In this document: piece by piece, positions 4,719 through 47,600 of the stretch
Position numbering within the stretch: the first letter of the stretch is position 1
How the letters are laid out: each line of letters opens with the position of its first letter
From: Owenia fusiformis
Lineage: Eukaryota > Annelida > Polychaeta > Sabellida > Oweniidae
Assembly: GCA_903813345.2 (NCBI GenBank)
Contig: CAIIXF020000001.1
Coordinates: 21,283,915 to 21,347,914, forward strand
Length of the DNA: 64,000 bases
Direction: 5' to 3'
Translations under genes and position numbers: made by a program
Notes under the pieces: model-generated
Seen by the model: the letters and a program-made list of their open reading frames with translations, nothing else
Database searches by the model: none
What the model was told of the DNA's origin: nothing

Positions 4719-7700
4719 ATGCTCAGTAGCATCTGGGGATTCGTAAAGCGCCACAGACGCAAATTTTTGTTCACCGGGGCCGTTGTAGGAGGTAGACTAA
4801 TTATTTAGATGAATTTGTAAATCTTTGCTCCCAAGCCAAACTCAATTCGAAAGTTTACTGGATTTACTGATGAATGGTGTTGAACACCCCCAGTAAGCAA
4901 TAATAGAAACGCCTCCACTGTCTACCCTTTGCATTCGTTTGACTTCACTTCTTAAAAGAGAGCTTCGTCTTCACTCTTTCAAACTAAAATAAACCTGTGA
5001 ACTCACCGCGCCAATCAGTGTTCGTCGGCCAAATTTGACCGACGTTATATATATGGTCATTCCTTCTGACGTCATCGTTGAGCCCGGAATTGACCAATGA
5101 CATGCTCATATTTAATTAGAATGTATTTGGCGTGTGTTTCTTCAAGCTCGGTGAATGGTGGAAGAAAGGTCAGCGCATAGGTCAGAAGTGATTTATTACT
5201 CAAACTGTCACCGGTACCCGTAATATGGTCTCTACTAGGCAGAGTGTAGTTTAACTAGACTCTGCACGCAGGGTACCACTGTCTCATTTTCAATTGACTA
5301 TCACTTCGTGTTGAGCTAAATAAATGAAGTTCTACAGGTGGGATTGGCTAATCTAATGTGCTGTCGCGATGAATCGATACATTGCGATCTTCTAACCTCA
5401 TCAGTGTCAAGATTTAGGGACAATAAAAAGGCATTTTAAAGAAACGTTTCTGGTTTTTCGACTGAACCAATGACCCCAATTTTTACTTTGTTTTCGCACA
5501 CTGTTATGGGCCAGATGGGGATTGAATATTGAACAATGTCAAGCCCGTGTAAAGCATAATGAAACAAGCAAGATACAGAAATAACATGTAGTTAGGTCTA
5601 ATATGGAATCAAACCTAAGACTCTCTCAGTCCACTCAGTCTCAGTTCCAACATCTGATGCGATATTGAGCTGCCAAAGTTTAAGCTATGATGTCTGCACT
5701 TTAGTATCAATTTTTGTGCTATTAGGTGATTTGCTTTTTGGGGTTTGTTTTGAGACAAAAATCTCAACCCCAATAAATATTTATACAATTTATCTTCATT
5801 TTCAGGTGTTGTTCTCCTTGGAAAATATGCAAGGTCAAAGATCCAGCAACTTCAAGAGAAAGAGGCAGCAGACTGCCTAGCACATGCAAGGTATGATATG
5901 GGAGAAAGGTAACAATAGTTTTGCATAGCACATGCAAGGTATGATATGGGGGAAGGTAACAATACTTTTGCATAGCTCATGCAAGGTATGATATGGGGAT
6001 AGGTAACAATACTTTTGCATAGCTCATGCAAGATATGCTATGGGGGAAAGGTAACAATACTTTTGCATAGCTCATGCAAGGTATGATATGGGGGAAAGGT
6101 AACAATACTTTTCCATAGTTCATGCAAGGTATGATATGGGGGAAAGGTAACAATACTTTTGCATAGTTCATGCAAGGTATGATATGGGGGAAAGGTAACA
6201 ATACTTTTGCATGTACATGTAGCTCATGCAAGGTATGATATGGGAGAAAGGTAACAATACTTTTGCATAGCTCATGCAAGGTATGATATGGGGGAAGGTA
6301 ACAATACTTTTGCATACCTCATGCAAGGTATGATATGGGGGAAAGGTAACAATACTTTTGCATGTACATGTAGCTCATGCAAGGTATGATATGGGGGAAA
6401 GGTAACAATACTTTTGCATACCTCATGCAAGGTATGATATGGGGGAAAGGTAACAATACTTTTGCATACTTCATGCAAGGTATGATATGGGGGAAAGGTA
6501 ACAATACTTTTGCATACCTCATGCAAGGTATGATATGGGGGAAAGGTAACAATACTTTGCATAGCTCATGCAAGGTATGATATGGGGGGAAGTTAGTCTG
6601 AGAGCAATGTTTGCATTTTATCTAATGCAACAGGGAGTCACAAAACAAGCCTTTTTCTCACCTGCCATATGCATCTCTAAGCCCATTAGTATTAGGAAAA
6701 TGAAACATCTATTTTTTATAATTTATTTTTACAGGCGTCAGCATCATTTTGACAGTAATCAAAGGACATGCAATATGACAGTGTTGTCCATGATGCCTAA
6801 CCTAAGGGAGACCTTAATGAAAGCTCTCGACTCTGAGCATCTCACTGAACAGTTGAAAGCAAGGTTAGTTTATCAACTTCTACCTGGGGTGGAGTTAACA
6901 AAACGAAAGATGTATAGTTTGATATTCGGTTTGATTGATTGGAGTACAAGAATGTAGATTATTATTTTAATGAAGTCTGAGAACTGTTCTGTCTGTTGCC
7001 TGTATACATTACAAGGAAGATAAATGTGTATTTAGTTTTGTATATATACATATATGTTTTGTAGGCCAGCAAATAAGCTTGAAATATGGGAGGACTTAAA
7101 GATTACAAGTAAGATTTTAGTGTTCAATCATTTGAACCATGTGAATATAGAATCATTATCACACTGATTTCCCAACTGATTTTCTCCTAATGATGGTCAA
7201 ATTAACCATGGAAATGACATAACTATGTTTAACTTATGTTGTTGTAAGAATAAAATTGCTTTTACAATACTACAGTTAAAATTAAAGTAGGCAGTTGAAA
7301 CACTTAAGTTCTGTTAAAATTCAATAAGAGTGAATATGAAGTCACTGGGTTCATGTGAAGTGTTGCCCTTATGCATGTTATGGAGGTGTTGACTTGACAG
7401 GTTTTAAACTCTATATTGTTTTAGGCTTTTCACGAACCCTGGTCTCTATGTACAGTGTATGTATGGTTGTGGTCTACCTTAGGGTACAGTTAAACATCAT
7501 AGGTGGATACATGTACTTAGACAACCTGCTGAACAGAAATGGCACAGTAAGTTAATATTTTTAGACATGAAATTTGCATCTCTGCTATTGCATTGCAATT
7601 CTGCAAAATCCTATATCTTAAAAGTTAGTCTGATGATTGAATAGATTGATTTAAATAACTGGATTAACTGTGTTTAGGGATGAGGTTATTGCTCCTATAT

Positions 7701-10700
7701 CAAACTTTGGTTAATTGTGTACAATAAAACATAATGTTTTACTACAGTATCAAATAGATACATGTACAAATGAATTCCAAAATAGGCAAGTAAAATAGAA
7801 TCCCTAGAACATGTAGAACCACAATAGTTTTCAATAAATACAACATAAACCTTATTTTTATGTTGTAGGCAGGGGATATGCTAAATATTTTATTTATTTA
7901 CCTTTGCTTTTTGCCTCATTTCAGACACCTGAGCTTGCTGTAGCCTCACCTGAGATTCAACAGAAATACCTGGCCAATGTGCAGTATCTTCTAGGTCAAG
8001 GTAATAACATGAACTGGAAAATGTTGAAGTCTTTAATACAGGGTGTCCCGAAAGTATGCCCCCCTCCCTAGGCAGATATACATAGATGTCCCCATAGTAT
8101 GTGTCATATATCATTTTAAAGCTTTCCAAACTTACATTGATTTGCCAAGTATCATGGTTCAACTCACAAACGGGAAAAAGTTACACGCATTTCAAAATGT
8201 AGTGTTTTACCAAAGTTTAGTTTTACACAAAATTAATGTTCAGCGTGTCTCCCTTGGCCATGTTAACAGCAGCAATTCTTTCCAGATATGGCCTTAAATG
8301 CAATTCAAATAGGGGTATGGCATTTTTAAGGCATTTTAGAAGAGTTTCCTTGGAGTATCTGCCCTTACCGACCTCTTTTTACAACTCAATATCCATCCTC
8401 TCTTTGACGATTGCACCCATATTCATGGTCACATTCAGGTTAGGGGTGTTTCCAGGATACTGATTTTAACTTTAATTTTGACCAAACACTAAGTTTTGAA
8501 ATGTCTATAACTTTTTCCCATTTGTAAGTTGAACGATGATACTTGGCAAATCAATGTAACTTTGGATAAGCTTTAAAATGATATATGATACATACTATGG
8601 GAACATTGGTGTATGTGTGCCTAGGGGGGGGCATACTTTCGGGACACCTGTACATGAATAGTAGATAGGGGCAGATCTGCAAATCAATAGGAGGCGAAGA
8701 TCCAAATTTTGGGGGCCATACCTGAAAATTTGAGCCCAGTTTCTTTGAAATAGCTCCATTAAAAATAATGCCCAGTAATACTTGTTTGTTACCTAAATTG
8801 CCCAATTTATGTGGAGAGAAGCAGATTTTGAGCCCTAAATTTTTTGGGGGGGCTCCTTCCAGTGCTGGAAGGAATTATGTCTGTATACTATTACTGTTAG
8901 ACTGTAGGGTTACAGAACATTGTGTCTACAACAAAGCAAAATTTTTATGTGTAAGCATGTAAATGTGATGTCAGTCTTATGTATTAATTATAAACATGTT
9001 ATCTAAAAGGCTTTGTATAAAAAACCTCCTACCCACGTACCCTCGTACCCACGTACGTGGGTCCTGACCCAGTCTTTAAAGAGTTAAATTTTTAAATGTT
9101 TAAAACATTATTCAATCTCAGTTTATCCTGAATTATAGATGAATTTATGCATCCATATGCCTTCATTTATAGGTCTGACATCTCTCAAGTAAAATAAAAT
9201 AAAGCCGGAATTGCATAAATGTTCATTATTTTTGAGCTATTTGATTTATGTTTTTGATATGTCGAAATGTTTTTTGTTGATCGGGCAGTCTTACCTGTAT
9301 AACACATCAGTGCTGATTAGCAATCTCCTAGCCTTCGTCCAGTGCAATCCGTGCCTCCTGTTACCTCATGCAGATTGTAAATGTCCCGGGAAGTTTACCC
9401 TTGTCCAAAAGTTGACATCTTTTTAAAAATATATTTCTTAGAGTTTCCAACCAATTAAATTCACCACATTTTATTAGATGTTTATTTCAAATGTTATTAG
9501 AATTCATTCTTACGAATATTATACGTTATTAACGTATGTTAGTCAAAGATTTGGTGTCGTTGTTGTCCCGTATTCACGTTTTACGCGCAAAAAGCTAGAA
9601 ACTACAAAGCTGAACTTTTATCATTCAAACCAGTTTTACATCAAATCATTGTCAAAATAAAACTATACTCTTCATATTACCTAATTATGGATCAAACGGC
9701 CATGAATAATGTCGAAGTTTACAAAACCAAACTTACACTCCCCTGCATAAGTTTGGCAACTCTAACTTTTAATTCCATCTAAATGATTCACTGAACTAGT
9801 GCGCACAATTATTCTTAAATTGTGCCAAAAAGCGATTAAAAACGAATATAGCGAATCCTTCTACTTTTCAAATATTTCGTTATTCAATTGCGCCACGGTT
9901 AAACAGAAATGCAGCCTTTATTATTCCTTGAGATCGTGTGAATTGATCACTCTATCACTTTGTATCTCCAATTCTGATGTTAAATTAAATAAAAGACATA
10001 AGACAAATTACACGTATAGTTCAAATCTGTCGTGCAAACAATGAATACTTGTAATATCGTTTGAAAGAATAAAAAGTATATGTGATAAAAATCGAAACTA
10101 CAGGGTGTTAAAAAACAGGACCGATGAAAAGTTGAATAACTTCGTCAATCCAGAATCATCCAGGTCATTCAATGTGAATTTTGTTGTAAAAGTTTGACCA
10201 TATTCTGCTCATGGAGTCAAAAACTACAACACTTTACAACACATGCCCCATGTGGCCAATTTGCGCCAAGCAATAGATTGGTTGTACACTGTAAGACCAA
10301 CGATCAACAAAAAATCGCTTCGATATATCAAAAACAACACTCAAATAGCTCAAATGAACATTATGGAATGCCGGCTTTATTTTATGACGAGACAGATGTC
10401 CGATCTACAAATAAAGGCATATGGGTACATAAATTCATCCATAATTAAGCATACATTGAGATAGAATAATGTTTAAAAAATGTTAAAGATTTAACTCTTT
10501 AAAGACTGGGTCAGGACCCACGTACGTGGGTACGAGGGTACGTGGGTAGGAGGTTTTTTATACAAAGCCTATCTAAAATACTGAAATTATGTAGTATCAT
10601 GGGCTTTCAACTAGCTAATTGAAAGCCCGTGGTTGTATTGAGGAAGGTATGAGTATGCCGATTAACTTGTTTTAATATAAAGTCTTACACATCTCATTAT

Positions 10701-13700
10701 TCCAAACTTGTTATCATTTCAGGTCTTACACAACTCATTACTGATGTAACTGACATTGCGAAACACACATTAGAAAAGTAAGTTTTGTTCTTGTGGATAT
10801 TTCCACATACTGAGCCCTCTTTGTTTTTCTTTGGAAAGCCCTATGGCAAATCAAAATCATACAATCTCATCATTACAGCACACAATGTGCATTATATTAT
10901 TAAAAAGTGATTGTACATAATGGGCTTTCAAGAGCTCTTGTCACATGTCTTGTCTTCAGTGATATTTTCGAGGAATTGTGTTCTACTTTGAAAACATGCA
11001 TTTCTGAATCAGCAAAATCCACATTAATATCTTATAATATCTGAAGGCTTACATAATTACTACTAAAGGTGTATAAGTGCAAGGTTGTAGCCATCAAATC
11101 TTTGGTACTTCATAAATACCTAGAATTGCACCATCACATTTTTAGATTATTTGGGGGTTTTTTGTAAAAAGACACTATTTAAAAAAACATAATTGCCACA
11201 AAACCAACCTTTAATAATGTTACAAATTTCAGTATATCTCTGAAAGAAAAGCTGACATTTGTTCAGCTGAAGGAAGTTCTTCAGAAAGTACGTCACCAGA
11301 TGGAATACAGACGTCAGAATGGATATTATGATGCTTCTGCGACATCATTGTGTAAATACATACTCCCAGAGGATATAGGCCATGATGAGGTAGATAAGGG
11401 TTTTGCACCAGAAGGTTTTGGATACAGGTTTTATCATGAAGGAATTGTGCGGTCCCTCGAGATACACATACAAGGATAGTCCCTTGATCTAAAACTCACT
11501 GTACAAAACAGATGTTCTTACCAACGGAGGCTCTAGATAGATTCCACCTTCTAACTAAGATTCAAAAATTTTCAAAAATGATTTTTTACATAAATTCCAA
11601 TTTCAACAACTTCTTGTAAAAATGGTAAAAAATTCCTTTAGATTTTAAAGTATTTTTCAAAGAACATGGCGAAATTTTTTTTTTGAAATCGTCTTTAACA
11701 AATTGTGGTGTATAAATGGGATGGATATAGCCTGTATTTCGCGGACCTCTGCAATAGTGGGATAGACATAGAAAATATCCACTATATCCTACTACTATAA
11801 AGAGAAGACTCATCCTCATTGATCAACATGGTTACAAAAGAATAACAAGTCTGTTGAATGACAGATTTCACATTGGCAGACTATTCAAAAAGTGTCAGCA
11901 CATTATAGGAATTTCTATAGCTTTGAAATCTCCCTAATTTTGTTTTTTGCATGTGCTTTTAAGAGATTTGCATATTGTCGTCGTCTTGTGCTGTTGGGCG
12001 GGCAGGCGTGCGGGCGGGCGGCACATAAACTAAATCTTGTCATCAAATTTCCAGGATAACTGCTTACCTGTTCAACTCGAAATTTTTACAGATGCAAGAG
12101 CAGACTAGTACCAAGATCTGATTAGGTTAAGGGCATGCTGGGTAACTACGTGGCGGCCATTTTGAATTTTTCAACAAATCTTGTCATCAAAATTCCAGGA
12201 AAACCACTTATCCGTTCAACTTGAAATTTTTTCAGATGCAAGAGCAGACTATTGCCAAGATCAAGTTGATTAGGTTTTGGGTATGCTGGCTGAATTCAAT
12301 TTGGCGGCCATTTTGAATTTTTCAACTTGCTCCAAATTGACCAATTTTTTTTTTAAAAACATCTACAAGTTCTCAGAAGTTCAAATCTGACCTTAGATTT
12401 CAGATTTGACCTTTCATTCACCTTCAGTGACCTTGAAAAGGTCAAAAAAGTTGCTTTTCTAAATTGATATTTTGGATTTAAATTTAGGTCAGCTTAATTA
12501 CAAAACACCTACTGAGGTCTGAAAAAGTGAAATTTTCAAGGTCGAAGGTCAAGGTCATTAAACTAGGTCACAAATGATGTTATCCAAGTTTCTCAAAGTT
12601 TGAGACTACAAATCAATTCTTGTCATCAAAATTCCAAGAAAACCGCTAACCTGTTCAACTTGAAATTTTTACACATGCAATAGCAGACTAGTGCCAACAT
12701 CTGATTAGGTTTAGGGCATGCTGGGTAAACTACGTGGCAGCCATTTTGAAATTTTCAACAAATCTTGTCATCAAAATTCCAGGAAAACAACTTATCCGTT
12801 CAACTTGAAATTTTTACAGATGCAAGAGCAGACTATTGCCAAGATCTGATTAGGTTTTGGGTATGCTGGCTGAATTACATGGTGGCCATTTTGAATTTTT
12901 CAATTTGGCGGCCATTTTGAATTTTTCAAGTTCCAGTTTTTTGATTAGTTCCAGTTGATACCTGTGTTGTTTATCCGAGTAATTGTAGAGCATTAAACTA
13001 AACGTTTGCGATTATTTTAGGCATGCTCCTTGTCAGTGGAGGAAAGGACCATGAACAAACTGATGAGGGAAACTACAGATATGGTGGAAAGGTAATGATT
13101 AAATGACCCATGTATACAGAGAGAACAATAATCCAACTTAGGGGTCGTCTTTCAAGTTTCAACACATTTTCCATTATTTGTTTCTATGTCTTTCAAGTTT
13201 CAACACATTTTCCATTTTGTTTCTATGATACCACCCAACCCATGGAATTACTTTTTTTCCAATGTCTGAATGTGTATCTTATTTGGAAAACAAATAGGCT
13301 ATGATTATTTTAATAAAAAGATGATGTTTGCATTCATTAGATGATTAACCAGTTTTTCCCCACCAACCATTAGCCTAATTGTGTGAAATTTAAGTTAAGA
13401 TATAAGATATGGCGTTTGTATATTAAGAGAGGTGAAGCAGTCTCATTTTTCTTAACTAGATATTCTTTTTCATCAATCTCTAACAGATCGACTAACCAAA
13501 CAACCTTTTTGGGATTGTTGAGTTGGCGGAGAGGGCTTGAGCACCAGCACGTTCGAACTAGGCGAATGGTTGCCATAACCATGAGGTTATGAGTTCGAGA
13601 CATGTGTGCTCCTTGTGTTATTCATCTATTTTTTAGAATCAGTTTTGTTCAGGATTCACAGAAATTATTCATCTTGTACAGAAGAATCATGTTGATAAAC

Positions 13701-15038
13701 ATTAATATTTCATTGTTTTACTGAATAATATCATGAGAACATTAATTTTTAATTATTTCATGTAAACTAAGTATATGAATGTTTCGTTTTGTTTTCTTTA
13801 TAGCGGTGACTTCCACTCTGTACTGACCAACTGCTTGGATTCTAGCTTCATCATGATATATCAGAAACTCCATGATTTCTACAGAGAAACAGAGTATGTA
13901 AAACTTTCTTATAATTATATTTATATAATTCATAGATTTATCAATAGATCAAAATCTTAGAAAAGTTCCATGTATGAACTCTTTTTCGATACCTCTTGAA
14001 TGGCTTTATCAAAAGGGATTGTCAAGAAAAGGTCCACTTTCATATATTCTACCAATGTATTTTTCTGTCATTATGAAACTCTTGTTCTGAAGTTTCATAT
14101 CAAGAGTTGAAACATTTTTATTATCTATTATTCAGCATATTTTAATCTTTGTTTTTTATTTCACAAAATATAAGAAATTCTGGATCTTGATTGAAGAGAC
14201 TTTTTCACGAAGACATAATGGAAAAAATTAAGGAAGATAAAATGACAGCATATTTTGTAGTATTTAAACAGATAGGAGTGGGTCTATTGTAGCCTTTGGA
14301 TTTTCTATTGGTATGGAGCCGATATGTTGTTTGTATTGTATTGAGAGTCCATCAAACTGTAACTCAGTCTACTCCCAGACATGTTTTCAGGCATTTTGTG
14401 TAGGTACAACTGGTATTCAATCACTGCAAATATTCATTTCATGTTTTTTAGTGATGAATCCATTCCTCTAGCCAAACTTATCCCAATGGTTAATAGTCTG
14501 ATTCATACAACATGTGGGGATTCACCAAACTTCTTCATACAGGTGAGTAGTCACAGTGAGCTGTAGATTATTGTCAAGCTACGTATAAGATACAGGGGCA
14601 AACCTGAATAAAGGATGACCTCAAAATAGTAAAACCCTTTTATGAAAATGTGGGCTCCAATTTGAGGCCCAGTTTTCCAAATAAATAATTATCATTTGAG
14701 ATCAATTGTAGGATTGGAAGCCATGCGTCCCACTTGTTTCCAGGCGAACTATTTGAAAGATTGATTCTTAATTTTCAGAGCTGTTTGTTTGCATAACAAT
14801 CTAGAACTGAATATTTTTGAGCATTTTGGGTAACGGTGGCCATTTTGGATTTCCTGTCCTGAAATTTTGGCAAACCGTTCATTCCTTTATTTCAACACAC
14901 GAATTCTGAATAATTTGATAAATACATGTAACTATATTAAATGCATGTCCTTTATTTCAGGAGATATTACTGATGGAACAAGTCAAAAACTTTGCTGCAA
15001 ATGTTTATGAAGCCTTTAGCCAAGTATCTAAAGACTAA
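4719..15038 (+). CDS. PEX3: Peroxisomal biogenesis factor 3 (PEX3), 12 exons
   Basis: PEX3 is the peroxisomal membrane receptor that docks PEX19 and its membrane-protein cargo. I assembled 12 exons with GT-AG junctions and continuous phase: 4719-4791, 5806-5890, 6735-6863, 7065-7108, 7425-7546, 7925-8000, 10723-10777, 11233-11389, 13021-13091, 13804-13893, 14452-14542, 14961-15038; 1071 nt, 356 residues (human 373). The start encodes [16 protein letters not shown], a basic segment before a hydrophobic [13 protein letters not shown] anchor, as in the family. Conserved blocks include [26 protein letters not shown] with the PEX19-contact tryptophan at 104, [31 protein letters not shown] and the end [15 protein letters not shown]. 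Intron 2 starts with a minisatellite built from the exon 2 donor; intron 6 carries two transposon-like insertions; intron 8 a degenerate tandem repeat. The 5' end faces the sterol reductase gene across a short shared promoter. Confidence 0.95.
4792..5805 (+). other. PEX3 intron 1, nothing recognised
   Basis: A one-kilobase intron between a GTAGAC donor and a TTTTCAG acceptor. I see no ORF, RNA gene or clear inverted repeat. Confidence 0.5.
5881..6593 (+). repeat. Minisatellite of about 48-bp units seeded on the PEX3 exon 2 splice donor
   Basis: About 14 complete units and a partial one follow one another, each reading CATGCAAG then GTATGATATGG, a run of G and A, GGTAACAATACTTTTGCATA. The first unit begins inside PEX3 exon 2: its CACATGCAAG is the last coding sequence of the exon and its GTATGATATG the intron start. 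So every unit repeats the exon-intron junction. All copies keep the donor GT except the fourth (near 6025), which reads CAAGATATG. Two units near 6210 and 6370 carry an extra TGTACATGTAG. Each unit also has a second donor-like AAAGGTAACA. Reading from exon 2 through the first donor meets a stop (TAA in GGTAACA) seven codons later, so only the first donor yields the full protein. Confidence 0.95.
8039..8650. mobile_element. Tc1/mariner-like non-autonomous element in PEX3 intron 6
   Basis: The element begins CAGGGTGTCCCGAAAGTATG and ends with the complement CATACTTTCGGGACACCTG, flanked by TA on both sides (8037-8038, 8651-8652), the classic target duplication of Tc1/mariner elements. The arms remain similar for roughly 180 bp. 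The centre on the minus strand reads as a short degenerate protein fragment ([10 protein letters not shown], then a stop, then [17 protein letters not shown]) that may be a transposase remnant. It does not touch the neighbouring splice sites. Confidence 0.8.
9009..10569. mobile_element. 1.56-kb TIR element with 9-bp target duplication in PEX3 intron 6
   Basis: The ends are near-perfect inverted repeats of about 85 bp starting GGCTTTGTATAAAAAACCTC and containing a nested GTACCCACGTACGTGGGT palindrome. The flanks carry the direct repeat TATCTAAAA (9000-9008 and 10570-10578), a 9-bp target-site duplication. The interior is AT-rich with no ORF above 84 codons, so the copy is non-autonomous. A 9-bp duplication fits Mutator-like or Merlin-like families; I cannot decide. 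A CAGGGTGTTAAAAAAC string near 10101 resembles a Tc1/mariner end and may be an older nested insertion. Confidence 0.8.
12001..12935. repeat. Degenerate tandem repeat in PEX3 intron 8
   Basis: After a GGGCGGGCAGGCGTGCGGGC run, a module containing TCTTGTCATCAAAATTCCAG, GTTCAACTTGAAATTTTTAC, CAGATGCAAGAGCAGACTA and GGCGGCCATTTTGAATTTTTC occurs about four times, with a spacer rich in GACCTTGAAAAGGTCAAA in the middle. The same AAGGTCA-rich motif appears at 15460-15830. No coding signal. Confidence 0.7.
13501..13605 (+). repeat. Possible tRNA-derived SINE head or tRNA-like relic in PEX3 intron 9
   Basis: TGGCGGAGAGG (13524-13534) resembles an RNA polymerase III A box and GAGTTCGAGAC (13591-13601) a B box, about 55 bases apart. 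I cannot fold a complete cloverleaf from the stretch, so it is at best a tRNA-like SINE head or relic. Confidence 0.3.
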
Positions 15039-15282
15039 AGGGACTCACAACATCTAGAACATTAAATCATTATAAAAGTGAGACATACACAAAGAAATAG
15101 AACAGCAATTGTGAATGATATGGATTTACAAATCAGATCCAGTTATTTTGGATATAAGCTATACAGTATTTCTATTTTTATATAAAAGGAGATTAGAAAT
15201 GCTCCTCATTTGATGTGTAACAGCTTTGTTGACTTAAAAATTGACATGCACATCAAGAAGTGAAATTAACAATGCTTGTTAA

Positions 15283-15880
15283 ACACCAAAAAGTAGTGAC
15301 TTATTGTTATGGTCTCCGTTTTTTGTGGCAACGGTTGGCAATTGGCGGTTGACGTCTGTAAAAAATTCTTAAGACTTTTAATAACTTAACAAATACTGTT
15401 TAGACTGACGTCAATTTTTTCGAAATCATCAACAAGTTTTCAGAAGTTTAAATCTGACTTAAGGTAAAAACGGGTCAAAAAGGTCTCTTCAACTTGCTTC
15501 AAATTGACCTTTTTTCAAAATCATGTACATGTTATCAGACGTTCAAATCTGACTTTAGATTTGAGATTTGACCTTCATTGACCTTTTCAAGGTCAAAAAT
15601 GTCTTTTTTCAAATTGACCAATTTTTTCAAATTATGTACAAGTTATCAGAAGTTCAAATCTGACTATAGATTTGACCTTCAATGACATTCTCAAGGTCAA
15701 AAAAAGATTTGAACTTCAGTGACATTCTCAAGGTCAAAAAGGTCTTTTTTCAACTTCTTCAAATTGACTAATTTTTTTTCACAGTCATCTACATAGTTCT
15801 CAGAAATTCAAATCTGACTTAAGATTGAACTAATAATATTATGAGCAACTAGTTGGTGACATTTTGTCATGTTGATGGTT
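15283..15880. repeat. Dispersed repeat downstream of PEX3
   Basis: It starts with TTATGGTCTCCGTTTTTTGTG, also present at 22949-22970, and ends with GGTGACATTTTGTCATGTTG, whose complement occurs at 32034-32055 and in part at 22919 and 45480. The interior has three to four loosely repeated blocks with TTGACCTTCATTGACCTTTT and TTCAAATCTGAC. It may be a degraded foldback element about 0.6 kb long. No ORF. Confidence 0.55.
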
Positions 15881-16339
15881 TCAATACAGTAATTAATGGT
15901 TTCAATACAGTAATTGTTTCAATACAGTAATTGACATTATGATAAGGCTAATCTGGAATGTAATCAAGTCAATGGGAATTTTGAAATAAACTTGAATTTA
16001 CAAGTATTTTTCTTAGATATTTGATAAAAGGAAAAATCATCACTTTATATAATTTAAAGTGACCTTTTTTTGTTACTGGTGTTTAGCGGTCAGTGTTCAG
16101 CATTCTGCGACGGAATGTTGCACTTTTGTAACCATTCACAATTTCTTACCAGGTAATGACTGAATGACATGTGTACGTTCAGTTAATGCTTTGTTTGTCA
16201 TACTGAACATAGTACGTACTTGAAAATGTGGCAAAGATTCTCCTGGGAGAAATATTCAGCCATGTTGTTTAATCAATAAAGTGTATATAAGCCTATTATA
16301 TGTAATGTACTGTTTTTTACCTTCTATATATCACTTACA

Positions 16340-29643: not shown

Positions 29644-32600
29644 TCAGTGTACAAGCCATGAGTCCATCGCTGCTAGAATTGTGTCTACATTGTCTTTATA
29701 GTCCTCGGTCTTCACCTTCCACTTCACACCCTGAAAATACAAAACATGTTATTATTATATTATATTAAAGATTGATAGTTTTGTATCTAACGCCATAGCA
29801 TTGTATATGACATATTCATTTCAAAATCTGATCTAAGTCAAAATACAGTGGTGGAGTTAGGAAACACATTTACCCGTAAGTCAATTAGTGCACATAGATA
29901 AGTTTTAATTAAACCAATAGGCTTACTCATAAGTCAATGAAGGCATAGAGAGGTGGAGTTAAGCTATAGCTTTACCTTGAAGTCAATAAAGGCATAGAGA
30001 GGTGGGGTTAAGCAATTTGTTTACTTGTAAGTCAATGAGGGCATAGAGAGGTGGAGTTAAGCCATAGCTTTACCTTAAAGTCAATAAAGGCATAAAGAGG
30101 TGGGGTTAAGCAATTTGTTTACTTGTAAGTCAATGAGGGCATGGAGAGGTGGAGTTAAGCAATAGGGTTACCTGTAAGTCAATGAAGGTATAGAGAGGTG
30201 GAGTAAAGCAATAGGTTTATCTGTGAGTCAATGAATGCAGAGAGAGGTGGAGTTAAGCAATAGGCTTACCTGTAAGTCAATGAAGGCATAGAGAGGTGGA
30301 GTTAAGCAATATGTTTACATGTAAGAATGTAAGTCAATGATGACATAGAGAGGTGGAGTTAAACAATAGGTTTACCTGTGAGTCAATGAAGGCATAGAGA
30401 GGTGGAGTTAAACAATAGGCTTACCTGTAAATCAATGAAGGCATAGAGAGGTGGAGTTAAGCAATAGGTTTACATGTAAGAATGTAAGTCAATGATGACA
30501 TAGAGAGGTGGAGTTAAACAATAGGCTTACCTGTTAATCAATGAAGGCATGGCCAGGTGGAGCAATAGGGTTACATGTAAGTCAATGAAGGTATAGAGAG
30601 GTGGAGTAAAGCAATAGGTATATCTGTGAGTCAATGAAAGCAGAGAGAGGTGGAGTTAAGCAATAGGGTTACCTGTAAGTCAATGAAGGCATAGAGAGGT
30701 GGAGTTAAGCAATAGAGTTACCTGTAAGTCAATGAAGGTATAGATAGGTGGAGTTAAGAAATAGGTTTATCTGTGAGTCAATGAAAGCAGAGAGAGGTGG
30801 AGTTAAGCAATAGGCTTACCTGTTAATCAATGAAGGCATAGAGAGGTGGAGTTTAAAGCAATAGGTTTATCTGCGAGTCAATGAAAGCAGAGAGATGTAG
30901 AGTTAGTAAATGCTTTACCTATAAATCAATGAGGGCATAGAGAGTTGGAGCTAGGAAATGGGTTTGTTTACCTGTAAGTCAATGAGGACACTGGGCATAG
31001 AGAGTGGAGCTAAGAAATAGGTTTACATGTAAGTCAATGAGGACATAGAGAGGTGGAGTTAAGCAATAGATTTACCTGTAAGTCAATAAGTCAGAGAGGT
31101 GGAGTTAGTTATAGGCATTGCATTACCTGTAGATCAATGAAGGTAGGATGAGGTGGTCTGAGATCCAGGTTAAAGTTTACAGTTTGTAGTTTCAACCAAA
31201 CAGCATCAGGATCAACATAACTCATCTCAAGGAACATCTTGGTGGCAGCCTAAATAGTTAGCAAAATACATAATATATTGAAAATACTGTAATACTATTA
31301 AATCACCTTTGGTAGTCATCTTTATCTTATTGAATTTTACCTTCACAACCTCTCATTCTTATTAAATACAACTATACTTTAAAGAATAAAAATTCATGGA
31401 GATGGACAGACATACTGAATTTCAAACGAATACCGAATTTCACAATGTCAATATTTGCGATATGCTCAGCATCTATCATACATTCATTCGAAAGTATTCT
31501 ATAGGCATGTATAGATAGAAGATATCTAATGCAGTTTAACCACAACATATGCTATCATAAGTTCATGTACCAGCATATAGAAAATGTTAACTAGCCTAAC
31601 GGATATTAGGTACAAATGAATGCCGACCTTTAGCCTTTTCCTGGTAACTGCCCTCCAGAGTGAATATCTTACCTTTTGTAGCACCTGTGGTTGCACTGAG
31701 TGTAAGTATGGTAAGAAGGCAGTAAGAACATGATCAAATTCAATCTCATTTTCATGTAGGTTTATCTGAAAGAAGAGGTCAATACATCGATATTTTCAAA
31801 TCAGCTCTTTGATCCTCAATTGATTGAACAGCCATATTCTCCAGGTTACATAATCAACCATGGTAAAACTACAATATATGGTTCATTTAGTAAAATGTTT
31901 ATTCATATTGTTCCCTTGTAAAACAAATCACTGAAATCACATGTAGTTGAAAGTACATGTAGGTCAGAAAGGTTAGATTTGATGTGTATATCTACATGTA
32001 TTGTAAATGACCTACTATAAACAAGGCATTAACATGACAAAATGTCACCACCAAGTTGCTCACAATATTATAAGTTCTATGTTCAGTCAGATTTGAATTC
32101 CTGACAACTTGTAGATGATTTTGAAAAGAAATTGATCAAATTGAAACAAGTTGACAAAAGATGACTAGTATTGCAAAGTAGAATAACAATATACCTGTTT
32201 AGCCATGTCACCCATTGTCTGCAAGATTGCTAGCTGAAGCTTACATACTGATGTAAACTTGTATGTCTGTCCTGCCTTAGCACTGGAAAAAAATCAAGAC
32301 TAAATCGGTACATAATTTGTATAGAGACAGATCTGACTCTCTTTGTTACAACAAATACAGTACTATACTAGTATACAAATGTACAGCTTTTGAAATCTAA
32401 TTTTATTGTTTGGGTCAATACATATGTGATTTTATAGTGACAAGAAATATTCCAATTCAACAGAGACAAAGTTTATAGATAGCTACAAGAAAACTGTAAA
32501 ACCTTGGAAGCTGCAAATCCCATTGGTACTCTCAATATCAATGGAAACATATAATGTATATATTATCTGGTTTGAATTATAAATGATACAGACTTAAATA

Positions 32601-35600: not shown

Positions 35601-38600
35601 TGTCTTACAGTGAATATCAATTGTTATAATCTATAGGCCTATCCAAAACTCATGAAAAATCCATCATCTCAAACTTACCGTTTGGGGAGGATACCATCTC
35701 TGTACTGCACATACAAGGGAATGTAGCACCTTCATAAAGATCTCACATTCATCTTGATGATTGTCATCTAGTGACTGTAAGATCTGCAATCAAATACAAG
35801 ATACAAATGTACACTTTACAGTGTGTATATTAATAGAGGATATCATGTGATATACTGTACTCCCAGTTAATTTCGCGAGTTTTAATTTTGCGAATTTTGA
35901 GAAATCGCATTTACGCAGCTATTAAATTTCGCGGTTTTCACAAGTTCAAATTTCTGAATCCTCAAGTTTTGTAAACTTTGTTACACAGTAGTTACATCCA
36001 ACCCAGTATAATATTTGGATAAAATTTATAATTACTAGATCTTGGAGAATGGTACGCTGCACACCAACCTCTATTACATCGTCATTTTTGGTAAAATTGA
36101 TCCAATAAGCCAAGGAGACATCGTTGCTATATCCCATTTATCACCCATGTTTTGCAAATGTTTTACACAAAACGAAATGCATCGGAGTCCCATGTAATAA
36201 CAAATCCCCGGAGATTTGATTAGTGAATTTCGTGATGTTTATTTTTCGTGATTTTTCCACAATCGCGAAGAGCCCGAAACTAAATTGCACGCGAAAATAC
36301 CGGGAGTACAGTATTCATGATATGATTTTTATCTATGAATGGATATATTATGAGCCATATCTCATGCTTTAAAAGCATTATTAGATGGTTGTGAATATTT
36401 GACAAAATATATAGAATAATCTGCCTAAGAGCCAAAGGGCAGAAACAGTATATTTAAGGATCATCTAAATTGTGTATGCTGAAACAAAACGTGTTAAGTA
36501 TATTCGCATCAAATTCACCAAGTACATGTATGGAGGAACATGAATAAATTTAATACCTTAGAATAATTGTGACAATTGTGTTTTATATAATCAAGTATAT
36601 TTTCTTCATCCATATGATCATTTCATGAATTACACTGAAGCATGGCCTCTTGAGAAAGAAATATTTTTACCGGCATAGTTCTAAGCAACCTAATAACATG
36701 TACTTCATTTCTATACATTCATATAAATGTACATGCAAAATTGAGAGGATGATAATTGGTTGTAAAATCTTTTAATCCTCTTTTTGATCCTTTTAATGCA
36801 GCAGGTTGCGGTTTTGTCAATGAATAGTATTTTTATATTATCACAGTTCATTGACTGATCATACCAATGTTCATATTTAGAAATCCAACAGAACTTTATT
36901 GTATATTGTGCAGAAGAAATATAAGTCGCAATCAGGCAGAAAAATAAAAAGTAAAGGTAACTGTAATCACTTAATACCCCCTAAATGGAGACAGGGGGTC
37001 ACATCCAAATCTAAGGAAGGTAAAGCATTTGCGTAAAAATCCTGTACAAGGTTTGTGTCCTCCAAATCTCACTATACATGGGTGGAGTACAACCCAGATC
37101 CAGATGTATGTAATGGTAATAGTATTGATGCAATCACTGAATGGTGTTGTTCATGCCCAGTTGGGAGTAGGGTTGTAGGTTCATGTGCACACATTGCATG
37201 TGCTATTTGGTTCCTAGGCAGTGGAAGGCATGACATTTAAAATTCAAAAACTATGGAAATCTGGAATCTGGGGGGGGCCCTAAAACCAAAATTTAGCCCA
37301 AATATTGAAAATTTTAGGCCCATTTTTTAGATAATTTGGCCTAAAATTAAAAATAAGGCCTTAAAAGGCTCATTTATTTCCAAAAGGTTTTTGTGTTTTT
37401 CAATGTTGCCCCTTGTTCTTTCTCACTGTGATTTAAATTAACATATTTCTCTTTTCTTACACATTTTTGTAAACTGTTTGTGGACAATTGATCTTAATGA
37501 AATATAAAGAAGATCTTAGTCTGATATGCATTTTTGACTTCTTATACTTTATGTGTGTTTCCAATTATTCTAAATATATTGGGGCCAATATAGGGTCTAG
37601 GTAAAAATAATCTGTCAAAATGAATTTTAGAACCCGTATAATCTGAATATCTCTGGGACTGGCCAAATGTATGCAGGTGTTCACATTTCAAGATTTCTTA
37701 TCATTTGAGTCAATTAGAGATAAAACATAACTGCAGGTCATATTAACCATGTTTAACTCAGTTACAGTACATTTTAACTTTGAATAGTTACACCATTTGA
37801 TATGAAATGCTATTAGCTATTGACAAGTCGAACACTGCATGCAAAAATGTTCCTTTTCAAGTTTTCAAGTCTGAACTTTGACTCTGCTGCCATGCCAACT
37901 TTCAAAATTGCTTTTGAATTAATATGACATATTTGTTTTTTGTTCAAAGTTATTGTACTTTGGTTAAAGCTACTATGTCAACTTGACCTTAAACTAGATA
38001 TATCATATAGAAAGATGAGGTCGAACTGCCATTAGAACTGTATTTGGATAGACGCAAAAAAAGCAGGCCGAAAAAGAGTTCAGCAGAGAAGAGAATGTCG
38101 AGTCTCAAGGCAACATTTGCAGTTGTTACAGGTTCAAGCCAAGGACTTGGTAAGGAAATTGCCCTACAGTTTGCAAAGGTCTGCGACGGAGAAACATCTG
38201 TACTGGTTTTACATGGAAGAAATGAAGAACGTTTGGCAGCTGTTCATGCTGACATAAAAGCAGTAAATCCACTATTAACTGTGTGTGCTGTTGTCGCTGA
38301 TCTGGTTGAACATGAAAGCTACAAACGCCTTGTTGAGATATTTGATGAATTTGGGAAGCAGTCATTTGAGAGAGCGTTCCTGGTACATAATGCCGGAGAC
38401 CATATGGGATTCGTAAAAAACAAAGCCCATGAGATTGATGATCATCAAGCCATACAAAGATTCATGAGTATGCACCTAACATCAATGGTTGTACTAACAT
38501 CAAATTTCATGAAGAAAATTACAAGCCATGCTCTGATAAAGACCAAACAGTATGTGGTCAATGTAAGTTCAATGTCTGCTTTGGTACCAATGAAAACATT

Positions 38601-41600
38601 GGCACTTTACTGCTCAGCAAAGGCAGCAAGAGAAATGTTCATGCAGGTGCTAGCTTTGGAGGACCCTGAGGTTAGAGCATTGAACTTTGACCCTGCTATC
38701 ATGCCAACAGAGATGTTGATAAATCACATTAGAGATGCGTATGATCGCGACTTTGCTAGGAAGTTGACAAAAATGGGCAAAGATGGAGAAATCTTTTCAG
38801 CAGTGAAAATTGCAGAAGAGTTTATAAAGGTGGTTATTCTTGATGAATGGAAAAGTGGTGAACATGTGGCACCGTGTAAATTTAAGGTGTGAGGACACGT
38901 GAGAACAATACAAGAACACTATGAAAACATTTTGATAACAATAGGAAAACAATGTGAGAACATATTGAAACATTATGAGACCAGTTAGAATACATAACGA
39001 GAAAAACACTGAAACATTTTGAGAACAGGAGACATTACACGAACAATTAGAAAACATTTACAAGAAAAACACTAAAATACTATAAACCCAATGGGAAACA
39101 AGAACAATTGGAAAATATTGAGATTGAATTTAAACAAGGCACAGACGTGAACAATATCGTACCTAAAACACAGCAGTGTGACAGTGAAGAATTTAGGACG
39201 GAAAATCCAAAATGGCCACCTTAAAATTTACCCAGAATGCCCAAAAACTAATCAGTTCTTAACTTTGATACGTAGAAACATCCCTGAAAATTTCAGATGA
39301 ATCCATCAAATGGTTTGGCTGGAAACCTGTAGACAAGTCTTGAAAGGGAAGATTTTAGGACGGAAAATCCAAAATGGCCACCTTAAAATTAACCCAGAAT
39401 GCCAAAAAACTAATCAGTTGTTAACTTTAATATGTAGAAACATCCCTGTAAATTTCAAATGAATCCGTCAAATGGTTTGGCTGGAAACCTGTAGACAAGT
39501 CTTGAAAGTGAAGATTTTAGGACGGAAAATCCAAAATGGCCACCTTAAATTTTACCCAGAATGCCAAAAAACTAATCAGTTCTTAACTTTGAAGCCCGCC
39601 CGTCAAGCTGACGACAATATCGTACCTTTATTAGGTACGATAAAAAAACATTATGAGAACAATACTAAATATAAAGGATTTTATAATAAAAACATTATGA
39701 GAACAATACTAAATATAAAGGATTTTATAATAAATATGTAAGACACAGTGTAAAATATAAAAAATTGTGAGTGAAATATATCCCATTTGTAAATGAATCT
39801 TTGTTGTTTGTTGGTTAATAACTGAAAAGCTAAAGCTCACCTCTCTTATGGTGTCATCAATGTAGTGAATGATTTCCTTCCCCGTGTACTTCAGTAGGAC
39901 CTTCAGAACCAGAGGGGTATTTGGGTTTCTGCCTAAATGTCGAAGCCTCAGAGAGATTGACGACACAATGAAATCTGCATTCTTGCACAGTAAGTCATTT
40001 ATAGAACTGGAACATACATACATACATAACTTACATACATGTACATGTATATCATAAACTGATGTTTTTGATGATCCAGGAATTTAAGTATTTATGGCTA
40101 TTATTTACACAGAAATCTGAAATGCAAATAAACCATTGCACCTATATCTATAATAGGGGAATGTTTTCCGAAAATTTCCATCAAATATAGATGGCATGAT
40201 GGCACGGGTAACTATCAGGGGGAGGGGGAATAATGAGAAATTTCAGAGGAGGGTATGCACCCCTTAAGCAGGTATACACCAATGGGGCAAAATCCCACTT
40301 GCCCCATCGAGTCCCATCTTGCACCATCGAATCCCAACTTGCCCAATCGAATCCCACTAAGTCCCATGGGACCTTGATGACTTTGCCCCATCATGCTCTA
40401 TGGAGTCCCAGCAAATCCCACCTTGCCCCATTGGTGTATGTTGGGCTTCACACAACACATCATATGATCGAAAATCCCACGATGCCCAATGGAAAGAATG
40501 AACATGTTCATTCTGGATGGGGCAAGATGGGACTCCGTGGGATTTTGCCCCATCTTGCCCCATCGAATCTCACTGAGTCCCATTTGGGACCTCATGCCAC
40601 GGACTCCATGGGGCAAAATCCCAAGAAGTCCCACAAGGTCCCACGCAATGTTAAGTCTATGGAGGTCCCAACTTGCCCCATTGGTGTATACTGGGCTTTA
40701 ACAAAGTCATCTAGTACCTGTATTTGCCATGCTTTGTGATGTCACAGAGTGTAATATAAGCAGTATCACTCAGTAATGCAGATTCTTCTCCTAGTTTCTC
40801 TAATGTAGGATACAAGATATATTGCAACATCACTTCAAAGTCCCCACCAAGCACCTGAATCATAAACACATATTGTTTACTTACTTTTACAAAGTATATA
40901 CTTCTACAAAATATTTGAGGCTTCTGATTATAATCTGTCTTTGTTAAATAAATAAATACACATAGTTTTGATTTCATACTATAATGCAAAAATCAACATT
41001 ACAGGGTGGGCCAAAAAAAACCAATACCCAACTTTAAATTAGAATGAAAATAGCTATGTTCAATATGATACATTGATTTATATATCATTGTACAGGTAAT
41101 CCATTTTCGAACAATTTGGTATATAACACTATGTCATGAAATCAATATTAAAGATTTATCATGCTTATTTGGGAGGCCGGGTCGGTATTTAAGGTATCCA
41201 GATTTTAGGGAGAAAATAGTAAATCTGCGGAATAATGTTAATTTTTTATTTAAAGAATATCATTTTGTTAGGTGAATACATGCTTGTATATTTGTATATT
41301 GTGTGACTAAATTTATTGTTTATGAATTTTAGTGTTGTTTATTATCAATAAGTACTCAAAGGGGGTCTGTTAAAAGACATTAAACGTATATGTGACGAGG
41401 ATTTTATTTTCCAACAAGACATTGCCTCGTACCGTAGATTTCAGGAGACATTGGCATTCCTTTGCAGACAAGGTGTCAATTTGATTGATCTGATGCTTGG
41501 CCACCCAACAGCCCCGATGCTACATGTAATGTGTTTGATTACCATACATGGAGCCTTCTCAAGGAAATTGTACAATCAAAAGCATCCAATAAACAACATT

Positions 41601-44600
41601 GATGAGCTGAAACAGAATCCTAAAGTGCTGAAATGAATTGCAACAGAAATCTCTCAATAAGGCTATTGATAGATTGCGCTACCACTTGAAGCTTATTGTT
41701 GATGCAGAGGGGAGGGAGTGGGGGTATATTGAGCAATTGTGAAAATTAATTAAATAAATAAAGTGTAAAATGTTATTAAACAGCACTGAAATTCAAAAAC
41801 AATAGATTTAGTCACACAATGATGCAAATATCAATATCCAAGCATGTATTCACCTAACAAAAGAATGATATTCTATAAATAAAAAATTAACATAATTCCG
41901 CAGATTTACTATTTTCTCCCTTAAATCTGGAGACCTTAAATAGCAACCTGGCCTCCCAAATAAGTAAAATAAAACTTTACTATTGATTTCATTACATAGT
42001 GTTATATACCAAATTGTTTGAAATTGTATAACCTTTAAAATGATATGTAAATCAATGTACCATATTGAATGTAACTATTTTTATCCTGATTTGAAGTTGG
42101 GTATTGGTTTTTTTTGGCCCACCCTGTACATTACAAAGCATTAAATATGTATAGGAAATCTATATTTCATCCACAAGTGTATAGTTTTCTGAATAAATCA
42201 GGCACCGAGAACATACCTTTGCAAAAATTCCAAATCCCTCCAGCATGAGGCAAAGTTGCATTATATTGCTGTTGAGTGTTTCAATAGAATGAAGGTTTTT
42301 CTTTAAGCGACCACTTTGGTTAAGCTGCCAGGGATTGGCCTGTTGTTGCATTCCCCGGATTGCTTCAGCGTTAGACACAGGAATATTCCAGTATGCTGCA
42401 GATAGGTATGTCTCAACCAATGACCTGAAATAAAGTTCCTATTTTAAAGATCTTGAACCCATCAGAAGCCTAAGGCTGAATGACTTAATTCAACCAATGA
42501 TTAAACACATTCAATGAGACAAGAACTATCTTTCAAAAAGTCAGTGCCACTCAAGTTAAAATCAAGAACAAAAATAGTGTTGTATATTTAGTGCCAAATT
42601 ACAGTTAGTAAACATATACCAATGTATTGTATAAATAGCTTCATGAGGATGTATTAGTTACAATAAAACCCCTTCAATAGCATGCAACAATGTACAGCGT
42701 TTACCTGATGATGACTGCAATAGTTTCTTTGGAATGCTTTAGATGTTGAGGACTGTCTGAACAGGTGGTTGCTCCAGGTGTAGAGTTCAGATTCAGACCT
42801 TCACCCGTTGTTCCTAGCATTAGCTCATTCAGAATGAGTATGGACTGTTTACGATGCAGACTCGTTTCAGTGAAAACATCTAAGAAATGGTCGGTCAAGA
42901 CGTTAATGTCACCTTTAAAAACAGTACTAAAGAGATAAACAAGAGAATCATATCAACACAAAATATACAAGCAAATAAATCAATAGGCAAAAGTAATTAG
43001 TATTGTATATATAAAGATTGTTATTGTATATATAAAAATTATCAAAATCATTTCAATTAATTTCCACAAAATTGAGTTTTAATGCAACCATGATTTTTTT
43101 CATTTATGATAAATCGTTGCTATAATTATCAATATTTACCATAGTAACCCAATAGCCTGCAGATTAACTGCAACTCTTTGTGTATTCGCTCGTCTGTAAA
43201 TTCTTTAAAGTATTTCTTTGGTCTGATTATTTCTGGTTGGCTGGACATATATCCCATTGCTGCTTCTGAAACATGACACATCAGGTCTTTAAACATTTAG
43301 CAGCCTGTACCATTTCACAGGATAACTGTGGTCTCCTATTTTTCAATTACATATGCTAATAGGAGAATACTAGATGGCAGACTGATTAAAGCGAACTTAA
43401 AAAAAACCTTACATGATGCAGGCCCGTAGCCCCCTGGCCAAATATTCTTTCAAAATCATGCAGTTTTTCACCATTTTGAGCATTTCTCAAGAGATTTTAG
43501 CCATATTTGGGCCAAAATTGTCAGATGTGAACCCCCCCTGGAAATTTTTGAAAACTGAACCCCCGTTGGCAAACTATTTGTCATTCAAAACTCAGACCAA
43601 ACTGATCTGGTACAGTGGTTAAACACAAGTGCCAGTGCATGTAAGTACCCTTTCATTCAAGAGAAATTCACAAATGCAAAATGGCTGTTTTCTACAAAAT
43701 TGGTGTGGAGGTTATGAGATGACAAAATGGCTTATAGGCAAAAAATGAGTATACCTGTGGATGCCGAGGTCCTATCCTCCACAATTTTGATATCTGTAAT
43801 GTCCAGCTCCAGTGTCTGCACCAAGGCTAGGGACAACCTCTTCAGATGTGGATAAGACAGAATGAGACCCTTAATCCTGGGGCCTAGAATAATAATGGTA
43901 AATGTTATAAATTAGAACCTGTTAAGAAAGCATACTAAAAAGTGGTTGGATAACAGATGCGGTCAAAGGAGGAGGAAAATTAGTGCAACAGATTTTGGAC
44001 AGTCATATGTTTGATTTTGGCCATTTCCTGGTGATTTAAACAGGTGCAAATGTTAAGCGCATGCATTACCTCCAGGAAAATCACTTCTAGAGACGATAAA
44101 ATAATTTCTCAGATAATGGCCAAAATCCAACATGTGACTGTCCAAAATCTGTTGAGCTAATTTCCCTCCTCCTTTACAGTTTTTGCTGAACATTGTATGA
44201 TAAATCAAAGATCACTGAATATAAACATACTATGAGTCACCTTTTTAAAATTCCCTTAAATATAATACTCTGCATGACTGCATATCTATCTATTGCCTGC
44301 CTTTTATCAATAAAAAACCAATCCTTTAATTAATTAGCAATCATTCTACCTGTCAATATTACCAAATATTGATGACAAATTATAAGTACAATTTCAAATA
44401 ATTGAATTCATTCTTGCCCAAATAGTGACACTAATAGTGACATAACCTCTAAATATATTTAGTTAATAACTAATAGGCATGCTACTTATGCTCACCTAAT
44501 AAATTCAGATATCCACTGAACAACTGTAGTGTTGATATTTTCTTATTATCATCCATGGTTCTTATAACTCTTGGTAAAGATGTCGCCAGTGCATGTAAGT

Positions 44601-47600
44601 TCTCTTCAAGAATTTCAACCAAGGATTTTGATTGGTTGTTAGCCATATGTGCATTACTGAACTGCTGTAAGGCCTGAGTAGCCTTAGAAGCTACGTTAGG
44701 GTAATCATCTCCCACTAAACCAACTAATACTTGAAGCAGATGAGGAATAGAAGCTTCCATTGATCTGAAATCGCATGCTACAATTTACATCAATTTTAAC
44801 AACCTACGTAGTAAATGTATATCAAAAACATTCACTTAGTCAATGTTTGATATGAAGCCTTTACAAGTGAATAAGAAAATGGTGGTGAAAACCCCAAAAC
44901 AGAACCTAAGGCAGAACCATGAGATTTACAAATGGGTGTAATTGAGAATAGAAATAATACACTTTTGTTTTTAAAAGATATCTTTGATGCTGCCACATTT
45001 ACATGATAAGGATTGTTAAATGGAAGAAGTGCTCAAAAGTGTGTGCATTGTAGTGCCACTTGTATGTGACGTCTTATGTGGTAAACCCCTCCCCCTCATT
45101 ATTCACATTTTTGCTAGTTAGTCAAAATTTGCAGATCTTTATTTTTCTTAAATTCTTAATTTTCAAATGGGTGCAAGTGGTTTTTCAAGTGGGTGCATAT
45201 CTCACACTTCCTACAGTGGGGAGATCACACTGGACAATTTCTGCAACTGAGAATCGACTTACTTGTTACACTTGGTAATGAGGGCCTCTGCCCAGTCAAC
45301 GAGAGCCATGCGAACTTTCCAGCTAGAGTGGCCCACCAATGTTGCGATATTCTGAACAAGAATATTCAGTTTGTGTGCCGTGTCTTCACTCCATCTCTTA
45401 CACCTGGTCACTGCTAATTTGTTACTCTCACTGTGATGACTGGACTGTCCTGGAAATGAAATAAGGCATCAACATAGAAAAATGTCACCACCTGGCTACA
45501 ATTACAAAAGTGTAACCATGTAACATAACAAACAACCCCAAATGCAGAATGTGGATGGTGGTTACAAGAATGTCTATAACAATGTCACAACTCATTTTTG
45601 TTATTGGTGAGTTTGATATTTCATTCAATTGACACAAACTCTTGAAGAAAACACATTTGCCAAAAACAGGAAAATTCATGCAACAATTCTCACTTTACCT
45701 ACACAATGAATAAATTACATGTAGTATGATGAATGTAATCAAAATTGATCATTAGAGAATGAAAAGGGATTTTTACATGCCAATTGTCAAATGATTTTGC
45801 TATACATGAGATTCACACATTGCAGTATTCCAGAGAGGAAAGGCGAATTGGGCCACTAATTATTTGAAATATTGTAACTTATTCAGGAAGTATAGCACTT
45901 GTGGAATCTGACTCATATGATTCAAAAACTTCAAAGAGATGACCTTAATCAAAAGTAGAATATTTATATTACCTGATGATTTGGTATTTTTTTGTTCTGC
46001 AGCATTTAACATCTTATCTCCCATGACAAGGCACACAATCTTTGTCCAGCAGTGAATGGCATTCTAAATAAACAAAAAGACATTCATTCAAAATCTTATT
46101 GAATTTAAATAAACCAATGGTGCACATAATTTAGTCTACATGTTACATAGATTCAAGTATTTTCACTACCAGTTGACGACACACAACAGGAAAAATAATG
46201 TGGGCGCAAACTTTCTTATGAATTGATTTGGTTGATGCCTGATGTTCTACTTGCATTCTTTCTTTGAATTATAGTTAGATATCATTGAGAGTGTTTGATG
46301 AAATAAAATGAAAATTGGTCAGACAAAACAGACTTACAGAATGTTTTCACAATGGAAAATATGTGAACCAGAACAACTTCCATAATTTGATGTATGAAAT
46401 AAAACATGACTTACCGGTGTTACATTCTGTCCTTGTTTGGTGTACCCTATGATGACTCTATATATAGCAAGACTTATATGAAATGATGCATGACTTACCA
46501 GTGTTACATTCTGTCCTTCTTTGCTGATGCATGACTTACCAGTGTTACATTCTGTCCTTGTTTGTTGTCTCCCATTGTGACTCTATATACAGCAAGACTT
46601 ATATGAAATGATGCATGACTTACCAGTGTTATATTCTGTCCTTGTTTGGCGTCTCCCATGGTGTCTCTATTTATAGTAAGACTTAAATGAAATGATGCAT
46701 GACTTACCAGTGTTACATTCTGTCCTTGTTTGGTGTCACCCATGGTGACTCTATATATAGCAAGACTTATATAAAATGATGCATGACTTACCAGAGTTAC
46801 ATTCTGTCCTTGTTTGGTGTCACCCACGGTGACTCTATATATAGCAAGACTTATATGAAATGATGCATGACTTACCAGTGTTACATTCTGTCCTTGTTTG
46901 GTGTCTCCCATTGTGACTCTATATATAGCAAGACTTATACCAGGCAGGAATGATGCAAATATGTTCCCAACTGATATCACCATAGTAGGGCACACTGCAA
47001 TATATATAAATAAAAGACTGAATATTCAAGACAATATAAGCATGTACATGTACTTTGTATGATATGAGAGCACAGAAAAAAATTCAACATTTCGTTTCTG
47101 TTCCTTTACAAGAAAATCTACTTTTCATAGCTTTGGACCTCAAATCACATGGGCCCATAAAACCAGCATTTTTTTTTAAAAATTTTGCACCGAAAGAAGT
47201 TCATTTTTTCACTCCTTCTCAATAAAGAGGTTTGAAGACGTTTCACTACTAGATAGACCTAGTCAATCAACTTTTGTGACACCTCTATTAAGAATACTAA
47301 TTGTATTTGTAATTTAAATGTAGCATGCTCCCATTTTCATCATCATGATACGTAAAGAGATCACATTCCACAAAATCAAAACCTTTCTTATTGCAAGTAA
47401 ATACCTTTCATATTGCTATTTAATACCTTTCGTATTGCCAGTTAATACCTTTCTTATTGCATTGTGCCAGTTCTAGCAATGCATCCATGGCATCCGTCCT
47501 GAGTTGTCTTAGTTTTTCTTTCTCTATGAGGTCTAGTAGTAGAGATACAGCATGCCCCATGGGTGGAAGAAATGGGACTGCATATACTTTCTCTATAATG

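Follow-up and report, generated by a model that had tools for sequence, protein, structure and literature searches.

The window analysed here, a 64,000-nucleotide stretch of DNA, contains the genes PEX3 and TTI1, which were rebuilt from splice sites and open frames. The PEX3 model has 12 exons encoding 356 amino acids, and the TTI1 model has 23 exons encoding 1082 amino acids with 0 internal stops (exon 16 has a weak donor, GTTTAA). The PEX3 model aligns with PDB chain 3mk4 (E=6.5e-96) and the TTI1 model with 7ole (E=3.4e-204), and the protein alignments are gap-free over the PEX3 exon 2/3 joint (3mk4) and the TTI1 exon 5/6 joint (7ole); the 7ole alignment has a gap next to the TTI1 exon 4/5 joint and does not extend to the exon 22/23 joint. 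The exon models that place the four donors discussed below are thus supported, as both proteins match solved structures and two of the four joints are gap-free.

Other features of the window include an ERG4/ERG24 sterol-reductase family ORF (1475-3037, - strand), a sulfotransferase ORF (62132-62680, - strand), and a short-chain dehydrogenase ORF (38011-38892, + strand; adh_short, E=1.5e-24; sepiapterin-reductase-like by eye) that lies antisense within TTI1 intron 14. PEX3 intron 6 harbors a 1.56-kb stretch (9008-10570) with 88-base terminal inverted repeats that are 99% complementary, suggestive of a young non-autonomous DNA transposon, and a reverse-transcriptase ORF at 53551-54804 (- strand) is broken in two, one piece matching RVT_1 (E=5.7e-17) and the other yielding no match.

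Four minisatellites at exon-intron junctions

Tandem arrays, identified with TRF, lie at four donors of these genes:

5806..5890, + strand: PEX3 exon 2; donor after base 5890 (model and PDB homology)
5874..6592, + strand: PEX3 exon 2 array; TRF, 48 bp x 14.7; copy 1 overlaps the final 17 bases of the exon
29915..31156, - strand: TTI1 exon 22 array; TRF 29915-31107, 49 bp x 24.0
31127..31249, - strand: TTI1 exon 22; donor at 31126 (model, TTI1 homology)
46405..46939, - strand: TTI1 exon 5 array; TRF 46525-46939, 84 bp x 4.9; 64 exon bases overlapped
46876..46994, - strand: TTI1 exon 5; donor at 46875 (model and PDB homology)
47381..47461, - strand: TTI1 exon 4 array; TRF, 22 bp x 3.7; 13 exon bases overlapped
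47449..47600, - strand: TTI1 exon 4; donor at 47448 (model)

The TRF edge of the exon 22 array falls at 31107, while likeness to the unit reaches 30 bases inside the exon, to 31156; the exon 5 array is extended to 46405 by a 125-bp row. In all four arrays the exon-proximal copy is the genuine exon end, which is identical to the unit at 15/17 positions for PEX3 exon 2, 23/30 for TTI1 exon 22, 62/64 for exon 5 and 13/13 for exon 4, and none of 5000 shuffles gave an equally good exon-unit match for any of the arrays. TRF and exon-unit alignment together confirm the original prediction that each of the four arrays fuses the end of an exon to the start of its intron at the donor. The accompanying claim that the units are centred on the donor GT is refuted by the exon share of the unit, which is 17/48 (PEX3 exon 2), 30/49 (exon 22), 64/84 (exon 5) and 13/22 (exon 4). 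By eye, the four unit sequences appear unrelated to one another, which supports the proposal that these junction-anchored arrays are independent in origin. The PEX3 array, which has a single match in the assembly (498 Mb, 525 contigs), shows a 351-bp higher-order period, and unit types recur in the TTI1 exon 22 array; this pattern suggests growth by block duplication.

PEX3 and TTI1 together contain 10 arrays with a score of at least 100, of which four are at donors (the TRF edge itself touches three donors, the exon 22 array having been added by exon-unit alignment), six are elsewhere and none is at an acceptor, among 33 donors and 33 acceptors. Under naive random placement, donors are not in excess (3 hit vs. 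3.9 expected, p=0.82) while acceptors are hit less often than expected (0 vs. 3.9, p=0.008), both p-values being unreliable because this null allows long arrays to overrun exons. An edge-based test places 4/10 arrays at donors (p=0.005, with a 70-base cut-off set after seeing the data). All of these in-window p-values are optimistic, since the window was singled out for its junction arrays. That choice of window, the naive p-value, the six in-gene arrays away from donors and the absence of a significant excess among arrays picked with neutral words alone (below) would all fit chance, with a repeat-rich genome sometimes clustering four such arrays and no real donor excess. We consider this rather unlikely, given that more donor arrays were found outside the window, including at exons matching Rieske, PUS3, thrombospondin and homeobox domains.

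Downstream donors, reading frame and constraint

Many array copies carry splice signals. Later copies equal the first donor in score in the PEX3 and TTI1 exon 5 arrays, and downstream donors score up to 8.7 vs. 5.9 for the first donor at TTI1 exon 22, and 6.0 vs. 5.5 at exon 4; with downstream scores the same or higher, position, not strength, must decide which donor is used, if protein is made. Homology across the joints shows, for the predicted proteins, that the exon-proximal copy fits the conserved protein in two of the four cases (PEX3 exon 2 and TTI1 exon 5), where the first donor is needed. Reading through the first donor reaches a stop in at most 10 codons at PEX3, TTI1 exon 22 and TTI1 exon 4. 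At TTI1 exon 5 the frame stays open for 123 codons beyond the first donor, with five equal-score donors, all in frame, and the five coding copies show 9 replacement and 5 silent differences (dN/dS ~0.55), a ratio that settles nothing either way. The frame-keeping ascribed to these arrays is thus seen at TTI1 exon 5, and is contradicted by the early stops at the other three.

Downstream donors that equal or beat the real donor could mean that selection keeps duplicated donors, or that these donors serve as decoys that tune splicing, and the T and A following the donor G are indeed invariant across the copies of the two arrays tested (TTI1 exon 22 and PEX3). The G itself is missing from 4/26 exon 22 copies (85% identity vs. 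a unit mean of 87%) and from 1/14 PEX3 copies, ranking 31/49 and 36/48 in conservation within the respective units, and use of downstream donors would give early stops in three of the four arrays. The earlier suggestion that selection retains the duplicated donors is not upheld by these losses, which affect the G only: the duplicated donors have no clear protection, with some constraint possible given the invariant T and A, and we regard selection on donors as highly improbable.

Donor arrays elsewhere in the genome

Array and exon calls on flanking sequence were made by eye, using open frames and splice sites. Among the donor-motif matches listed, 18 places were examined, comprising 8 for AGGTRAGT and 10 of the 16 AGGTAWG arrays that remained after a dispersed AGGTAAGGAGGAGG-type repeat had been left out before counting. 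Clear donor arrays were found at four of the AGGTRAGT places (3.28, 6.98, 15.10 and 19.35 Mb) and three of the AGGTAWG places (1.41, 8.17 and 10.31 Mb). Homology at these seven comprises Rieske (E=1.9e-12), PUS3 (E=4.7e-11) and a marginal crotonase match (E=0.11); the remaining four were called from an open frame and splice sites. As for the other AGGTRAGT places, 8.83 and 14.18 Mb represent one dispersed repeat, 11.97 Mb has an uncertain edge, and 5.41 Mb is ambiguous, being a 33-bp array (L008 1472-1974, on C1) that is open in all copies, encodes an 11-residue repeat, and may be coding or a donor array. The 18 places retain as misses the 8.83/14.18 Mb repeat and L048 (no array), and uncertain edges (57 kb, 28.9 Mb, 11.97 Mb, L044, L050, L052, L054) were also counted as misses. 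A single flank was read for 28.9, 42.06, 44.65 and 60.95 Mb.

Arrays were also picked without donor bias, in three ways. Among the matches listed, two neutral words, free of GT, AC, AG and CT, led to 9 and 8 arrays, respectively (for the second word, after removal of a dispersed family and two transposon-like places), with one donor-containing array each: at 10.31 Mb, and at C3 19.65 Mb, where the exon is ORC6-like (E=2.4e-4, under the Pfam cut-off). By themselves, the neutral words place a donor in 2/17 arrays, which is not significant (p 0.09-0.24). The matches listed for the reversed donor motif included 9 arrays on C1, one of them, at 60.95 Mb, at a thrombospondin-domain exon (E=1.4e-15); the 19.35-Mb array, which is at a donor, was left out because the reversed motif overlaps that donor, leaving 1/8 arrays with a donor. 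Finally, 12 randomly drawn 10-kb stretches contained 8 arrays that passed the cut-offs (unit 15-120, at least 3 copies, score at least 100), for 7 of which flanks were read; a homeobox exon (Pfam E=2.1e-8) supplies the donor at which one of them (L021 8719-9171) begins. At L015 1-4567 and 8307-9852, long arrays repeat with a period of 145 bp (or 437 bp) and have, by eye, a tRNA-like B-box stretch in the unit.

Pooling these three sets, 4/33 arrays contain a donor vs. ~1.2 expected at a donor density of 3.5%, with p=0.017, 0.027 and 0.106 at 3, 3.5 and 5.5%, densities that are assumed estimates and on which the expectation depends. No acceptor-containing array was seen among the 33. An earlier pooling, which included the 19.35-Mb array and lacked the random sample, gave 4/26 (p 0.007-0.05); dropping the former and adding the latter lowers the odds of a targeting process and raises those of chance. 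By eye, the arrays at 6.10 and 31.59 Mb begin just beyond a donor and the one at C3 30.60 Mb degenerates up to a donor, the starts of all three lying roughly 8 to 60 bases beyond it; the 9.13-Mb array stops just short of an acceptor. A donor excess over chance is suggested by these data, not proven, being small and of borderline significance.

Two other measures were rejected. Genome-wide motif match counts exceed those of reversed motifs (AGGTRAGT triplets, 570 vs. 517; AGGTAWG, 2400 vs. 1086; the acceptor motif TTTNCAGG, 664 vs. 432), but neutral words also exceed their own reversals (355 vs. 96, 485 vs. 0), so that such ratios say little, and flanks were read instead. A codon-plus-splice exon-end score reached 13 in 9/18 donor flanks and 0/12 control flanks, and was set aside because it is biased toward donor-motif sets and some of its matches lie away from the array.

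Arrays at acceptors

The claim that no array is seeded on an acceptor stands within the window, where 0/10 in-gene arrays are, and fails elsewhere. Of the 29 acceptor-motif arrays among the matches listed, 10 places were examined, and arrays at four of them end at an exon start, so acceptor-seeded arrays exist: L057 (7tm_3 at E=6e-6, under the Pfam cut-off; GABA-B-receptor-like by eye), L058, L060 and L062 (LIM-like by eye, with no Pfam match). Clear donor arrays (7/18 places in 19.5 Mb) outnumber acceptor arrays (4/10 in 49 Mb) 4.4-fold per Mb (p=0.016), a comparison in which array numbers are small and each motif set covers the same proportion of known sites (5/33). The 5.41-Mb array was dropped from this ratio because it is open throughout and possibly coding; counting it too gives 8 donors and a 5.0-fold ratio (p=0.007).

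Origin of the arrays

We favor the reading, with a probability of roughly 0.57, that these are ordinary minisatellites begun by short junction-spanning duplications, tolerated where they arise and filtered harder at acceptors. A short tandem duplication across an exon-intron junction would start the minisatellite, its exon side being fixed by the protein. Duplicated copies would land in the intron while the spliceosome keeps to the exon-proximal donor, and would for that reason be nearly neutral, free to expand and contract by slippage and unequal exchange. Acceptor duplications would arise too, and would be removed more often because an additional upstream AG is likelier to be spliced. Against this reading, intron interiors should tolerate arrays equally, and the hint of a donor excess is not obviously predicted.

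That hint would be expected if a mutational process targeted junctions, donors above all, through R-loops, polymerase pausing or duplications involving U1-bound nascent RNA. The pooled count of 4/33, with no acceptors, and the three further arrays that begin shortly beyond donors are consistent with such a process; the neutral words alone yield no significant excess, the donor density behind the expectation is an assumption, some arrays are seeded on acceptors, and none of the results bears directly on a mechanism. The targeting of junctions put forward in the original prediction is thus possible as a small donor excess of borderline significance, while its donor exclusivity fails; as an explanation, we judge targeting unlikely. 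A bolder version, in which transcription- or splicing-coupled duplication of junctions, mainly donors, operates across distant phyla, the arrays act as copy-number-variable decoy donors, and TTI1 exon 5 could add protein in 28-residue steps, seems quite improbable. Ordinary, tolerated minisatellites remain our preferred account.

Comparison with known junction-spanning repeats

The amphioxus precedent named in the original prediction, minisatellites at 5' intron ends, is in print (PMC3087553). Amphioxus ‘mirages’ are described as minisatellite-like arrays in which an exon-intron boundary, with its splice signals, is repeated in tandem, in Adh3, BflGb6, BflGb9, TnC and PGBD5, occurring at both 5' and 3' boundaries (including an array at an acceptor in BflGb6), with units of 10-72 in Adh3 and 150-160 in globins (PMC3087553); they are said to leave regular splicing undisturbed, and RT-PCR and polymorphism are reported. 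The units described here (22, 48, 49 and 84 bp) fall within that range of tens to ~160, and here too many copies carry splice signals and both junction types occur in the genome. Unlike the mirages, the present arrays are known from the sequence of one assembly alone, and their host looks lophotrochozoan rather than cephalochordate, so that the two are likened by structure, not descent.

This placement of the host draws on Hox-like homeoboxes that lie in line on C1 (17.97-18.47 Mb). The alignment of one Hox gene (L013) with Drosophila Ultrabithorax continues past the homeodomain into a UbdA peptide (QAIKE.NEQ), and in another (L011) the homeodomain is followed by KLTGP. The UbdA peptide and KLTGP following a Hox homeodomain mark protostomes and lophotrochozoans. 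Searches for cox1 and GFP found no match, which carries little weight, no control having responded in the GFP search. The host is probably not amphioxus, and these peptides point to a lophotrochozoan.

Among the matches listed in a literature search that mostly lay outside subscription papers, no report of junction-seeded arrays outside the amphioxus phylum was recognised by title or abstract start; a C. elegans paper, an earthworm metallothionein paper and a plant survey deal, in the parts seen, with repeats inside introns and not with arrays seeded at junctions. Tandem duplication of AGGT sites as a route to intron gain, as summarised in PMC3087553, likewise leaves splice signals in tandem copies, whereas the copies described here lengthen an existing intron between conserved exons. 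The class is already known from amphioxus mirages, and its host here is apparently a lophotrochozoan. If junction-spanning minisatellites recur in lancelets and in a lophotrochozoan, they would represent a general trait of some intron-rich genomes and not a peculiarity of lancelets. The arrays also provide a natural setting in which to test how the spliceosome selects one donor from a long series of near-identical ones, and whether such repeats give rise to new introns or exons.
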